From assembly GCA_027060825.1 (NCBI GenBank), contig JALSWC010000222.1, forward strand, positions 1-34,296: DNA of 34,296 nucleotides, written 5' to 3'. Under the pieces are notes generated by a model, which searched no databases, had not been told where the DNA came from, and saw nothing but the letters and a program-made list of their open reading frames with translations. The DNA comes from Sulfurimonas sp. GTDB lineage: Bacteria > Campylobacterota > Campylobacteria > Campylobacterales > Sulfurimonadaceae. Below are positions 1-7,182 of the stretch, in pieces. The position numbers and the translations under genes were made by a program. Position 1 is the first letter of the stretch, and the number at the start of each line of letters is the position of its first letter.

Positions 1-207
1 TTTGCATAAAGTTTTCATCACGCTCTACTTCAACTATCATAGGGCGTGAATGTTTATACTCTTGTGAAACTTTTGAAGAACTCACACCAACATCCAAATC
101 TGCCACATAGCTAATAACACGCCCAAAAAGCAAAGAGTAGCGTCTTTCAAAAAGTGCTTGAAGCCCAATATAACGCTCTTTTACAAGTGTCACTATTTTA
201 CGACGGT
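1..207 (-). pseudogene. Partial second copy of mutS7, truncated at its 5' side at position 207 and running off the left window edge
   Basis: Matches 5271-5477 at constant offset 5270 with 7 mismatches (positions 19, 112, 128, 146, 166, 173, 175). Minus-strand translation is open: [68 protein letters not shown]. Homology stops abruptly after 'cgacggt'. Confidence 0.9.
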
Positions 208-332: not shown

Positions 333-1817
333 ATGAAAATAAAAGAATTTATTTCAAGTTATAAGAATCATCCTGTTTTATTCATCGGTACTGGAATTAG
401 TTTAAGATATTTAAAAAATTCATATACTTGGGATGGATTACTTAAAAAAATCGCATTTGAATTAACAAATAATAAAGAGTTCTATTTGGATTTAAAGTCT
501 AAATGTTATAAAAATGATTCATATCAATATGAAAAAATAGCTACTTTATTAGAAGAAGAATTTAATACTTTATTAAGTCAAGATAGAAATGGTAAATTTA
601 AAGAAACCAATGATATTTTTTATGAAAATATGAAGAAAGACAATTATTTAAGTAGATTTAAAATTTATATATCTCACTTACTATCTAATTTAGAATATAA
701 AGATAATATGCAAGATGAAATTATTGAATTAAAAAAAATTAGAAAAAATATCAGTTCTATAATTACGACTAATTATGATCAGTTTATAGAAGAAATATTT
801 AATTTTAATCCCTTAATTGGTAATGATATATTACTTAGTAATCCTTATGGTTCAGTTTACAAAATTCATGGTTGTATTTCAAAACAAAAGCACATTATAT
901 TTACAGAAAATGATTATAAATTATTTTCAGAAAAATATGAATTAATAAGAGCACAGCTCTTGTCATTGTTTATTCATAATCCAATTATTTTTATGGGTTA
1001 TAGCATTAGTGATAGAAATATTAAAGATATTCTAAAAACGGTCTTCACTTATATTGAACCTAACTCAGAACAAGCTGAAAAGATAAGAAATAACTTCTTA
1101 TTAGTAGAATATGAAGAAAATTCAGTCTCTAACGAAATCGTTGAACACGATATTGATTTAGAAGGATTTTCAACAATAAGAATTAATAAACTAAAAACCG
1201 ATAATTTCATTCCAATATATACAGCTTTATCAAATTTACATTTATCAGTTTCAGCTATGGATATAAGAAAAGTACAAGATATAGTAAAAGAAATTTATAG
1301 TGGTGGAGAAATCAAAGTAAGTATTACTGATAACTTAGAGGAAGTAAATAATGATGAAAAAATATTAGCTATTGGTTCAGTACATACAATTAGATATGAA
1401 TATCAAAATAAAAGTGAGATGATTTCAAATTACTTTCAGATTATAGATGAATCAAATTCTCAAGTGTTAAATCTCATCGACAAATATTCGATACAAAAAC
1501 AACAATTTTTTCCTGTTTATGGATTTTCAAAGATTAATGAAAATATTCAATGCATCGATAAATTAAAAAAACAGCAAAAAGATAAAATAACATCTATCAA
1601 TAAATCAAAATACAAAAATGAACATATTTCTATTGAATCTATTTTAAATGATATAAATATAGCTAACAGCAATAAAAATAGTACAATAATTTGGTCTATA
1701 CTGAAAAAACAAATTAATTTAGAAGAATTAGAGAAATATTTAAGAGATTTTGGCGATAAAAAAAGTACAGAATATCGTAAACTATTAGTTACTTTTGATT
1801 ATCAGAAATATAAATAA
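333..1817 (+). CDS. SIR2-like domain protein (probable defence NADase)
   Basis: SIR2_2-type motifs: VLFIGTGIS near the N-terminus, SSIITTNYDQFIEE (N147), VYKIHG (H179), IIFMGYSISDRNIKDIL. C-terminal about 200 aa not recognised. Confidence 0.8.
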   Translation: MKIKEFISSYKNHPVLFIGTGISLRYLKNSYTWDGLLKKIAFELTNNKEFYLDLKSKCYKNDSYQYEKIATLLEEEFNTLLSQDRNGKFKETNDIFYENMKKDNYLSRFKIYISHLLSNLEYKDNMQDEIIELKKIRKNISSIITTNYDQFIEEIFNFNPLIGNDILLSNPYGSVYKIHGCISKQKHIIFTENDYKLFSEKYELIRAQLLSLFIHNPIIFMGYSISDRNIKDILKTVFTYIEPNSEQAEKIRNNFLLVEYEENSVSNEIVEHDIDLEGFSTIRINKLKTDNFIPIYTALSNLHLSVSAMDIRKVQDIVKEIYSGGEIKVSITDNLEEVNNDEKILAIGSVHTIRYEYQNKSEMISNYFQIIDESNSQVLNLIDKYSIQKQQFFPVYGFSKINENIQCIDKLKKQQKDKITSINKSKYKNEHISIESILNDINIANSNKNSTIIWSILKKQINLEELEKYLRDFGDKKSTEYRKLLVTFDYQKYK

Positions 1818-1830
1818 AGGTTAAATATAA

Positions 1831-2940
1831 ATGGTATATAAAAAATTACTTATATCAATTTATGATGAAGCAAAAGAAAAGAAAAACTATTCAAAAAAAC
1901 TAAATAAAGAAATTTTAGAAAACATTGAAATAATATCAACTAAATGCTTTAATCAAAAAGGTGTTTATACGGTTTTAGTAACTTTGTCAATTTATAAAAT
2001 AAAACATCCTGAACAAGATATAAGAATACACCAAGCTCAACTAGAAAATGGTTTTTCTGGTAGAAGTATGGATACACACCATATTACACCAACTTTAAAA
2101 GAGATAGACTTACCCTCTATGGCAGAAAGTGGTTGGCTTACTCGCTCATTAGAACAACCTTTTCCTTATACATTAGATTATAATGGCAAAATAAGTGATA
2201 AAAAAGTAAAAAAAGCATTTTTAGAACTTATCAATGAAATTCAAGTTAATAATATCAATCCTAAATTTGTTCTAGTGGAACTTTTTAAACAAGTAATTAA
2301 AATACAAGAAAAAAATAAAATTGAAATTCAACCATTAGAAAATCCTGATAAATTAACAATATCCAAAATTATAAACTTATTGGATAAACAATTTTCATTT
2401 GACTATAAAACTTCCTATGGTTCAAAATTACCAGTTTTAGCTTTTTATTCTATCTATAAAATTATCATAAATGAAATATCAAGATACAATAATTGTACTT
2501 TAAAACCATTAGGTAGTCATACAGCAAGTGATAGAACATCAAAAAGTGCTGGAGATATTGAAATATTTAATAATAATGAATTATTTGAAGCTATAGAGAT
2601 AAAATTAGATAAGCCAATCGATGCAAATATACTAAGAATAGCTAAAGAAAAAATAATTAAATACAATCCTAAAAGATATTATATTTTATCATACTATGAA
2701 ATTAAAAAAGAAGACGAAGAAGAAATTAATAAAATAATTCAAGAAGTAAAAGAAGAACATGGTTGCCAAATAATTGTAAATGGAATTATGGCAACATTAA
2801 AATATTATATGAGATTAATAAGTAATTTAGAAGTCTTTTACAATTCATATTCTGAATTAATAAATATTGATGCTGAATTAAAAGCTATACATACACAAAA
2901 ATGGAATGAATTAACTGAGGAGTTAAATCATGAGCTATAA
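1831..2940 (+). CDS. Probable type II restriction endonuclease (possibly SacI-like family)
   Basis: Adjacent to and overlapping a C5-MTase gene. Contains IRIHQAQLENGFSGRSMDTHHITPTLKEIDLPSMAESGWLTRSLEQPFPYTLDYNGKI, which resembles SacI-family REases from memory. A candidate catalytic segment (GDIEIFNNNELFEAIEIKLDK) fits a PD-(D/E)xK-like pattern. Confidence 0.65.
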   Translation: MVYKKLLISIYDEAKEKKNYSKKLNKEILENIEIISTKCFNQKGVYTVLVTLSIYKIKHPEQDIRIHQAQLENGFSGRSMDTHHITPTLKEIDLPSMAESGWLTRSLEQPFPYTLDYNGKISDKKVKKAFLELINEIQVNNINPKFVLVELFKQVIKIQEKNKIEIQPLENPDKLTISKIINLLDKQFSFDYKTSYGSKLPVLAFYSIYKIIINEISRYNNCTLKPLGSHTASDRTSKSAGDIEIFNNNELFEAIEIKLDKPIDANILRIAKEKIIKYNPKRYYILSYYEIKKEDEEEINKIIQEVKEEHGCQIIVNGIMATLKYYMRLISNLEVFYNSYSELINIDAELKAIHTQKWNELTEELNHEL

Positions 2941-3994
2941 GTTTATTGATTTATTCGCAGGAATTGGTGGATTTAGAACGGGTTTTGAAAAGAATGGATG
3001 TAGTTGTGTATTTAGTTCAGAAATTGATGAACATGCAGGCAAGATGTATGAAGCTAATTATAATGAAACAGTATTTAAAGATATAACTAAAATAGATGAG
3101 AAAAAAATACCAAATCATGATGTCTTATTGGCAGGTTTTCCATGTCAGCCATTTAGTATTGCAGGAGAGAAAAAAGGCTTTAATGATACTAGAGGAACTC
3201 TGTTTTTTGAAATTGAACGAATATTAAAAGAAAAGAAGCCAAAGGCTATTGTTTTAGAAAATGTTAAACATTTTAAAAGTCATGATAATGGAAATACACT
3301 AAAAGTTATTTTAAATGCTCTCAATAAATTAGGATATACAACTCATTGGAAAGTACTTAATGCTAAAGACTTTGGTGTGCCACAAAATAGAGAAAGAACA
3401 ATTATAATAGGCTCTTTAAATGGGATTAAATTTGATTTTAATAGCTTAAATACAAAAAAAACAATCTGTATTAAGGATATTTTAGAAGAAGATAATGGAC
3501 AAATAGAATACTTAGATGAAAATGAATATACACTTATTGAGAATCCAAAAAGACAACCATCTGGACTTATATTTGTAGGTTATAGAAATAAAAATATAAG
3601 AACAAAAGGTACAAGACCTGATACAATACACTTATCAAGAGTTCATAAGCAACCAAATAGGATATATTCATCTGAAGGAACACATCCAACATTATCATCA
3701 CAAGAATCAGCTGGAAGATATTTTGTGTATCACAATGGAAGAGTAAGAAAATTGACCTTAAAAGAGTGCTATAGACTTATGGGATTTGATGACAATTTTA
3801 AATTACTTGGTTCAAAAGCAAAACTTTATAACAGAATTGGAAACTCAATTGTTATTCCTATGGTAGAAGAAATAGCAAAACAAGTAAAAGTTCAAATATT
3901 AGATAAAACGAATGAAAGAGTTAAATCTAAAAATCCTGTTCAACAGATATCGTTATTTGATTTTATAGATCAAAAAGATAAACTTACTGGCTAA
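2930..3994 (+). CDS. DNA (cytosine-5-)-methyltransferase
   Basis: C5-MTase motifs: FIDLFAGIGGFRTGFE (I), AGFPCQPFSIAG (IV), ENVKHF (VI), QNRERTIIIG (VIII), RKLTLKECYRLMGF...YNRIGNSIVIPMVEEIA (IX/X). Confidence 0.95.
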   Translation: MSYKFIDLFAGIGGFRTGFEKNGCSCVFSSEIDEHAGKMYEANYNETVFKDITKIDEKKIPNHDVLLAGFPCQPFSIAGEKKGFNDTRGTLFFEIERILKEKKPKAIVLENVKHFKSHDNGNTLKVILNALNKLGYTTHWKVLNAKDFGVPQNRERTIIIGSLNGIKFDFNSLNTKKTICIKDILEEDNGQIEYLDENEYTLIENPKRQPSGLIFVGYRNKNIRTKGTRPDTIHLSRVHKQPNRIYSSEGTHPTLSSQESAGRYFVYHNGRVRKLTLKECYRLMGFDDNFKLLGSKAKLYNRIGNSIVIPMVEEIAKQVKVQILDKTNERVKSKNPVQQISLFDFIDQKDKLTG

Positions 3995-4137
3995 AGAAGT
4001 TGAAACTTTAAAAAAGAGTTTAAAAGCTAAAAGCAAGTAAAAAACATTAGGTAAATCCCACCCCAAAAAATAAAGTAATGGTTTCAGATTTATAAGCTTC
4101 AATGATACTGATATAATTTTAAACACTCTCCGAAACT

Positions 4138-7100
4138 TTACCAATCATCCAAGACGAAGCCTTTTGGCTCGTCTTCTTCAACTTTTTTTACTTTCACATT
4201 CTCATTTATTTCAGGCTCTTGCACCTTTTTTGGTTCCACTTTTTGCATCTGTTCTTCAAACTGTAACTCAAGCCCTTTACTTGTCATTATAAAACCATTT
4301 ACATGGAGTTTTCCATCGTGAATTTGATTGTGATGTTCTTTACAGAGTGGCACAAGATTATGTTTGTTATCTTTATGAAAATGCCCTATAAAGCCAGCCT
4401 TATCTGCAAGTGATTTTTGAGATATGTGATGTACATCTTCAGCAACTGCTCCACAGATAATACACTTCGTCACATACAGCTCTTTATTGTATTTTGATTT
4501 TTTCTTCTTTACTAAAAGTTCAAGCTCATCATAATCATTTGCAAGGCGTTTTCTAATTGTATTTGCATTCTCTAAAAATTCACTATCCATATGGAGTGAT
4601 TTTGCAAATTCAAGCCCATAGATGCTACTTCCACTTCCATGTTGAAGGAGACGATTAAATATCAGTTTATCGCTCACCTCATCATACTCAACACTCAAAT
4701 GTAAATTCACTACATTAACAAGTTCTCTAATCTCTTCCATAGTAGAGAGCTGATGCAGATGCGTTGCAAAGAGAAAGAGAGCGCGTATTTTTGCAAGTTT
4801 GCCAATAGCAGAAGCGACTATTGCTACTCCAGAAAGTGTTTCTGTACCGTGGCTTATCTCATCACCTAGAACCAAAGAACGAGCCGTTGCACGGTTAAAT
4901 ATATTTTTTAGTTCAAGCATCTCAACAGCAAAAGTTGAAAGCCCTTTTGCAAGATTGTCTTTTGAGACAATACGAGTAAATATGGAGTCAAATAAACTAA
5001 ACTTCATCACAGAAGCAGAAACAAAAAAACCAGATTGTGCCATAAGTACAGCAATACCAATACTCTTCATCAATGAAGATTTACCACTTGAGTTTATTCC
5101 ATATAAAAGTACACCATTTATTTCATGTCCATCATGAACATTTACATCAAGCATAACACTCTTTGGATGAGGCAGGTCAAGATAATCACGATTGCCCATC
5201 ACAATATCATTAGGAATATAAAGCCCTCCTCTCTCTTGCACCTCTATAAGTGGATGGCGTAATTGCATTATTTGCATAAAGTTTTCATTACGCTCTACTT
5301 CAACTATCATAGGGCGTGAATGTTTATACTCTTGTGAAACTTTTGAAGAACTCACACCAACATCCAAATCTGCCACATAGCCAATAACACGCCCAAACAG
5401 CAAAGAGTAGCGTCTCTCAAAAAGTGCTTGAAGCCTAATATAGCACTCTTTTACAAGTGTCACTATTTTACGACGGTTTTTCATAATGTTATCGGAGAGT
5501 TTGTCAGTAAACGCAGAAGTTATTTTGACATTATTTGTTAATTTTTTGACACTAAACTCTGCAAAATATTCACTTTTTTTAAATGCACTCTCAATAAGAG
5601 AAAAACGGTTTTTACTAATAGAGATATAATAGCCCTCTTTTTCTAAAAGTCCCAGAGTAACTACTTTTGTACTACTTGCTACATTTGCTTCATGCAATAG
5701 CTCTTCTATTTTTCTTATTATATCTTCAAAAGCTACCAACATGACACTATTCTCTTTTACAAGTGTATCAATAACTTCATCTACACCATTCATTAAGAAA
5801 TTTTCATCAACCGTTGCATTTGTAAAACGGCGTGAAATATCCAAATCTATTGTTTTAGCAATATCACGCAAAAACTCCTCTACCTCACTCTCATGAAAAG
5901 GTGCTTTTTGAATCTTATACTTTTTAACATACTGCATCAACTCTTTAATACTTAGCATCGAGTCATACATATAATTCATCTCAAATGGATGAAGCCGTCC
6001 AAGATTAAGCCTGCGAGCCAAACGCTCCAAGTCATAGACCCCTCGCATCATCTCATCAAGATAACGCACATGAGAAGAGACTCTTTCTATAAGATTATAT
6101 CTTCGCTCAAGCTCCTCTGTCTCCATAATAGGATTTAAAAGACGCTCTTTTAGTAGTCTTCTTCCTATTGCTGTGGAGCTTTTATCAAGCATCTTTAGCA
6201 GTGTAAACTCTTTTTTATCTTTTGAGATGATACCCATCTGCTCAAGGGCATTATTGCCAAGATACATAAAACGACGATTATCTATGATTTTCGGCATTGC
6301 CATCTTTTGAATAATGTGATAATCATGCTCTATAACAAAGTTAATGAGAATTGCTAAAGATTCGGTTATCATCGGTGAGCGTTCGAGATCCAAATGCTCT
6401 ATGGATGAGAGTAACGACTGTATTTGATAAACTTCTTTAAAGAGTTCATTTTGAAAGTCGATTTTTACGCGTTTGTTATTAACTGAGTAATGATAGTGTT
6501 CGGAAATTTCCAAATACTGCATCACATGGCGTTGTTCCTCAATGCCAGCCAAAAAAGTAACAACAACCTCACTTGTTCTATAAACATTTAAAAGATTAAA
6601 AACCTCATCAAGTGCATAAGAGGGGTCTTCACTTGTTCCATGCGTCTCATAAAGCCAAGTTTTTCCTGTCGTAACATCAATGGCAGAGTACCCAACTATA
6701 TAAATATCACGGAATTTATCAATTAAAAGTGACACAATATAATTGTCATCATTATCTATAATATGGTCGAAATTTGTACCAGGAGAGATTATTTGTGCAA
6801 TATAACGGCTTATTTTTGGAGGAGTGCCTTTTTGTTTGACAACAATAACAGTATATTTTTGTTCACCAATAAGACGGCTTAAGTATCTCTCAAAAGAGAC
6901 AGCAGGAACACCTGCAAGGAGAGGATTTTTTTCTGAATTTTCAACTATTCTTTTATTTTTTTTTGTAAGCTGAATATTAAGTAGTTCTGCTATCTCTTTT
7001 GCTTTACCAATACATTCTTCATCATTATTGACTTCATAGACTTCAAAAAAGGTACCAATTTCCATAAAGACTACAGTATCTTTGCCATATTTCTCTTCAA

Positions 7101-7182
7101 AATGACGCTGTAAATCAAAGTAAGCCTGTGTAAGAAGTTTCTCTTTACTATTGAGTATTTTCTCTATTTCTGATGATAACAT
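4138..7182 (-). CDS. MutS-family DNA mismatch repair protein with C-terminal HNH endonuclease domain (MutS7-like)
   Basis: N-terminal mismatch-recognition-like [12 protein letters not shown]; Walker [10 protein letters not shown]; Walker [15 protein letters not shown]-terminal [21 protein letters not shown]...[16 protein letters not shown]. Confidence 0.92.
5271..5477 (-). repeat. Right copy of the direct repeat, inside intact mutS7; left copy at 1-207
   Basis: Direct comparison of the two segments: same orientation, 200/207 identical. Confidence 0.9.

Follow-up and report, generated by a model that had tools for sequence, protein, structure and literature searches.

A PDC-S25 SIR2-domain gene directly upstream of a SacI-like Type II restriction-modification pair in a putative mobile cassette beside mutS of Sulfurimonas sp.

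Within the Sulfurimonas source genome, genes for a SIR2-domain protein, a restriction endonuclease (REase) and a DNA methyltransferase (MTase) follow one another on contig C222. The whole stretch of 34,296 nt that was analysed is called the window here. The locus is composed of the following features:

1–207, minus strand: partial copy of the mutS interior (pseudogene fragment), a direct repeat of 5271–5477 with 200 of 207 positions identical, running off the contig end
208–332, plus strand: AT-rich leader from the mutS-copy junction to SIR2, with promoter-like sites at chance level
333–1817, plus strand: SIR2-domain protein of 494 aa, PADLOC candidate family PDC-S25, predicted NADase, with G19/G21, N147, D149, H179, G222 and D227 invariant
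1792–1830, plus strand: SIR2 3' end and 13-nt spacer with an AAAGG motif, a junction common to genome G389, where it is the sole SIR2 remainder
1831–2940, plus strand: SacI-like REase of 369 aa, RE_SacI, with a GD...EIK motif
2930–3994, plus strand: C5-cytosine DNA MTase of 354 aa, DNA_methylase, of the Type II restriction-modification (R-M) pair
3995–4137, no strand: right end of the cassette; the homology of empty-site relatives begins with the mutS stop codon (4137/4138)
4138–7182, minus strand: MutS, full-length and intact with a C-terminal HNH-like domain, the gene at the insertion site, convergent to the MTase

SIR2, REase and MTase are all encoded on the plus strand. The gap between SIR2 and REase is 13 nt long (1818–1830) and AAAGG, a ribosome-binding-like motif, overlaps the SIR2 stop ahead of the REase, while 11 nt are common to REase and MTase. 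According to the ORF list, the coordinates, the common direction, the gap and the overlap are exactly those of the original prediction. A single candidate promoter ahead of SIR2 had also been proposed. This claim was dropped because a scan for sigma-70-like promoters could not be distinguished from shuffled sequence, with 32 matches compared to 35 ± 8 in the shuffles and none above chance. Thus, the operon call is based on spacing and strand only; co-transcription of the three genes is predicted. Neither the Rfam nor the tRNA scan of the window gave a match.

The SIR2 protein contains a SIR2_2 domain (PF13289, E = 1.6e-21 in Pfam) and is matched at full length by the PADLOC profile PDLC04968 of PDC-S25 with 523 bits (E = 2.4e-157; residues 2–494 on profile positions 13–515 of 517). 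PADLOC lists PDC-S25 as a one-gene phage-defence candidate, and a literature search found neither a paper naming PDC-S25 nor a published experiment on it. G19, G21, N147, D149, H179, G222 and D227 were invariant in 52 out of 52 homologues. N147 in a TTNYD motif and H179 in a KIHG motif had been pointed out before and are indeed kept throughout; in the alignment, the counterpart of H179 in the NADase KomC is H146, the residue mutated in PDB 9xvc. The AlphaFold2 model of the protein (mean pLDDT 82) matches the folds of ThsA, Avs5, KomC and DSR2, the matches being carried by the SIR2 domain and not by the C-terminal half. Domain, invariant predicted catalytic residues and NADase-type fold are consistent with the suggested NADase effector. 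Hydrolysis of NAD+ is plausible and abortive infection is predicted as its role. In the model, helices predominate in the C-terminal region (approx. residues 300–494), and confidence is low at 324–357. As in the original prediction, this region was not recognised: structure comparison of the AlphaFold2 model did not identify its fold. This region may be the sensor.

With ThsA (Thoeris), DSR2, KomC (Kongming) and Avs5, the protein shares the SIR2_2 NADase-type domain and the catalytic N/H pair in sequence and fold. However, a TIR/ThsB, Kongming or STAND partner was not found beside it, and its C-terminal region is much shorter than that of DSR2 or Avs5. The C-terminal domain of ThsA is a SLOG domain. 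A Thoeris reading was rejected, as the corresponding region of the window protein is modelled as mainly helical, unlike SLOG, and its neighbours are REase, MTase and mutS with no ThsB.

The REase with its RE_SacI domain and the adjacent C5-MTase resemble SacI-type Type II R-M systems, although the Pfam score of the REase is weak with 22.6 bits (E = 1.1e-4; Pfam cut-off 19.3, which it exceeds). The MTase matched DNA_methylase with E = 2.5e-100 (Pfam). The pair is conserved in relatives. REase matches were found in 15 of 397 genomes of the phylum, including the Sulfurimonas source genome, and a family-wide search added one. The R-M orthologues in the genomes G389, G199, G130 and G490 share about 87–91% DNA identity with one another, and the SIR2 protein had no match in these four genomes. 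In G199, the REase-MTase pair stands alone between unrelated genes and in G130 it lies downstream of an N6-MTase gene, both without SIR2; G490 has a truncated REase and SIR2 is absent. The REase of G130 (locus L188, 6585–7670) has an in-frame gap of 8 residues that deletes AIEIKLDK with the presumed catalytic EIK, and its MTase is intact, so that at this locus the REase is probably inactive and the MTase still functional. In a further genome (L177, 1501–1656), only the first 52 REase residues are left behind a leader that resembles the one of G130; by its sequence, it is a decayed R-M remnant. One distant REase relative was found on plasmids. Single-protein queries, with which only close relatives are detectable, returned no REase relatives in phages or viral contigs, so there is no support for carriage of the R-M pair by phages.

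G389 belongs to another family than the source genome. Ahead of its R-M orthologue is a stretch ending in TATGATTATCAAAAATATAAATAAAGG; it encodes YDYQKYK followed by a stop and lines up collinearly with the 3' end of SIR2 in the window. This tail is preceded by a transposase end of an IS element, which we take to be of the IS3 type. The tail is short and its score of 38 alone is no better than that of stretches that were rejected. The grounds for accepting it were its collinearity and reading frame, the identical stop and spacer, and its specificity in a pattern scan of 397 genomes, where the 27-base SIR2-REase junction was matched exactly in the source genome and G389 only. One match with two mismatches, in G519, had neither SIR2 nor REase nearby and shows the background. 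Weak SIR2-like stretches ahead of the REase at the other loci were rejected as low-complexity AT-rich sequence (scores 28–55). Given the remnant at the same junction, the SIR2-REase linkage is older than the source genome. Most likely, SIR2 was once located upstream of the R-M pair in the family of G389 as well and was then lost while the R-M pair stayed.

Loci of SIR2 homologues were obtained from a scan of the genome collection (79 loci), a plasmid tblastn search, which gave further close homologues, and viral contigs (80 loci). The best-scoring 80 loci per scan were sampled, some of them on short contigs. With the limited query set used for R-M neighbour genes, no adjacent R-M was detected for about 90% of approx. 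100 close homologues in genomes, plasmids and proviruses. Eight of the 63 close loci in genomes and plasmids lie inside an R-M operon, and they represent six independent lineages:

Muribaculaceae (L093, L094): HsdM-HsdS-DUF4145-SIR2-HsdR operon
Wenyingzhuangia (L088): HsdM-HsdS-SIR2 operon
Peptoniphilus (L087, L106): C5-MTase-SIR2-Eco57I/ResIII operon
Lachnoclostridium (L096): Eco57I/ResIII-SIR2 operon
Myroides (L099): Type ISP-SIR2 operon
Clostridia (L085): C5-MTase, Vsr, a gene of unknown function and SIR2

The R-M types partnering SIR2 (type I, ISP, Eco57I/ResIII-type and C5) are mutually unrelated. Explaining R-M adjacency on the SIR2 tree takes six changes, so it seems to have been gained several times, although only two of the changes are enforced by well-supported branches. 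Its frequency did not differ significantly between close and more distant loci (8/63 and 1/27, Fisher p = 0.27). A more distant SIR2 directly after HsdM-HsdS in Clostridium luticellarii (L116, 5001–5891) indicates that R-M embedding is not peculiar to PDC-S25. SIR2 homologues that are never linked to R-M genes would have refuted the original prediction. This is not the case, as linkage exists in six lineages with unrelated R-M types, but the family as a whole is mostly unlinked.

The close plasmid homologues (51–61% identity) have no R-M neighbours. Their annotated neighbours are resolvases, integrases, tellurite genes and ToxN/AbiQ, and a Pantoea plasmid of only 5.6 kb carries a homologue surrounded mostly by replication functions. 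Recombinases were the commonest Pfam families among 103 neighbour proteins scanned from the remaining SIR2 loci, with a single match to a Type II MTase model. One 2.17-Mb Neisseria gonorrhoeae record (NZ_CP119140.1) is filed as plasmid and is evidently a chromosome; in it, a DEAH helicase (hrpA-like) gene is in two parts, with a PDC-S25 gene and a sulfatase-like gene between them. On viral contigs, the single-protein SIR2 query matched nothing while an alignment query gave 80 loci, and the first negative result was thus a matter of sensitivity. Among these best 80 loci, 38 are close to the PDC-S25 SIR2. None of the 38 has a directly adjacent R-M gene, and at a single locus a C5-MTase lies at a distance of about 2.5 kb. 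As at least 38 viral or proviral contigs carry close homologues, the PDC-S25 SIR2 is a common phage-borne cargo gene.

Taken together, the locus is probably a mobile cassette in which a self-sufficient SIR2 NADase is stacked on an independent Type II R-M system. SIR2 would act as a one-gene system whose N-terminal domain hydrolyses NAD+ upon activation; the infection cue would probably be sensed by the C-terminal region of the same protein (about 300–494). Such a self-contained sensor-effector would be DSR2-like in logic. REase and C5-MTase would restrict unmethylated DNA independently of SIR2, and the shared gene direction would serve co-expression and joint mobility with no shared sensor. 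Both SIR2 and R-M occur on their own elsewhere, which argues for two independent defences stacked and not for one two-layer machine. Against this, the 13-nt gap with its ribosome-binding-like motif, the junction in G389 and the repeated R-M embedding leave room for coupling.

In a coupled, PrrC-like system, the R-M complex, its products or its inhibition would gate the SIR2 NADase and the cell would be killed if restriction fails. The idea of coupling immunity to suicide was published in 2012 and extends to Sir2 genes associated with Type I R-M (Makarova et al. 2012, PMC3506569). The window shares with it and with PrrC-PrrI the toxin-like gene within an R-M operon; it differs in that the R-M system is Type II and the SIR2 family is mostly stand-alone. 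The tight, operon-like spacing, the junction common to G389 and the presence of the same SIR2 family within type I, C5/Eco57I/ResIII and Type ISP operons are in agreement with coupling. Nevertheless, it is considered unlikely. R-M is absent beside most close SIR2 homologues, and the R-M orthologues persist without SIR2: the toxin gene is missing in G199, G130 and G490, is reduced to its last codons in G389 and is hence no consistent part of the R-M locus. For these reasons, the originally proposed SIR2 back-up that depends on R-M is not favoured. Partner-specific divergence of the C-terminal half was not seen; C-terminal versus N-terminal conservation was equal in R-M-embedded and stand-alone proteins (Mann-Whitney p = 0.96). 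Since the partner types are mutually unrelated, a single binding interface is unlikely, and a protein-specific gate would have to suit several of them and still be dispensable in most homologues.

The mobility of the cassette is suggested by its surroundings. Its GC content is about 20–28% compared to 30–40% around it, and positions 1–207 of the window are a direct copy of mutS (97% identity). Like the full-length PDC-S25 match, both features had been missed in the original prediction. The intact MutS shows weak DUF968 and HNH_2 matches in its C-terminal HNH-like domain and resembles MutS7 proteins. Of 135 genomes of the genus, 121 gave a MutS match. In a relative with an empty site (G159), mutS abuts a GatB/Yqey-like gene. 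In the source genome, the GatB/Yqey-like gene is joined to a second mutS 3' end on contig C61, and the full mutS abuts the cassette on contig C222. The simplest reading is the order GatB/Yqey – partial mutS – SIR2 – REase – MTase – full mutS. The cassette would have landed beside mutS and left a long partial duplication of it; such an insertion is likely, with a target duplication estimated at about 1.3 kb and no contig spanning both copies. The copies differ at seven positions; both relatives share the base of the partial copy at four of these and that of the full gene at one, and at two neither copy agrees with them. Long target duplication upon R-M insertion, with a length in the order of 100 bp, is attributed to Nobusato et al. 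2000 in the passages citing it (PMC3874152, PMC3031569). Here, a direct duplication of the target gene would likewise flank the cassette, but the copies are 97% and not 100% identical over the visible part and the estimated duplication is longer.

Alternatively, the sample could be mixed and the left mutS copy belong to a second strain. It would then be an assembly artefact and the cassette would not be flanked by a duplication. The contig ends within the mutS repeat, the genome consists of 274 contigs with 2% contamination and the copies differ at 7 of 207 bases, all of which fits this explanation. The second mutS 3' end on C61 is joined to the neighbour gene of the empty site as a duplication predicts, though a mixed population would give the same picture, and the SIR2-REase junction is independently supported by G389. 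An artefact is judged improbable and would concern the insertion history only, not the order of SIR2, REase and MTase.

Beside the stacking of independent defences, little credence is given to a third possibility, in which PDC-S25 SIR2 proteins would be general suicide modules that were repeatedly captured by unrelated R-M systems and are gated by a shared restriction product, e.g. DNA ends. Restriction itself would then be the trigger and no specific protein contact would be needed. It is very doubtful that SIR2 and R-M are linked in an addiction-type manner, each aiding the persistence of the cassette (R-M by post-segregational killing) with little anti-phage synergy: the AT-rich cassette, apparently inserted with a long duplication, and the documentation of R-M systems as selfish mobile units (PMC3874152) fit this, but an antitoxin for SIR2 is not visible at the locus and single-gene PDC-S25 on phages and plasmids fits a conditional defence effector better.

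The window SIR2 is a member of a known candidate family beside a known kind of R-M system, and its novelty is modest. It matches the PDC-S25 profile at full length and differs from the one-gene listing in lying immediately ahead of a Type II R-M pair. The analysis shows the distribution of PDC-S25, a widespread predicted anti-phage gene: it stands alone as a rule, is embedded in diverse R-M operons in a recurrent minority of cases and is carried by proviruses and plasmids. The useful new material is the comparative series of SIR2 present, remnant and absent. With the same R-M pair accompanied by SIR2, by a SIR2 remnant or by no SIR2 in related bacteria, a clean natural test of the coupling idea of 2012 is at hand.
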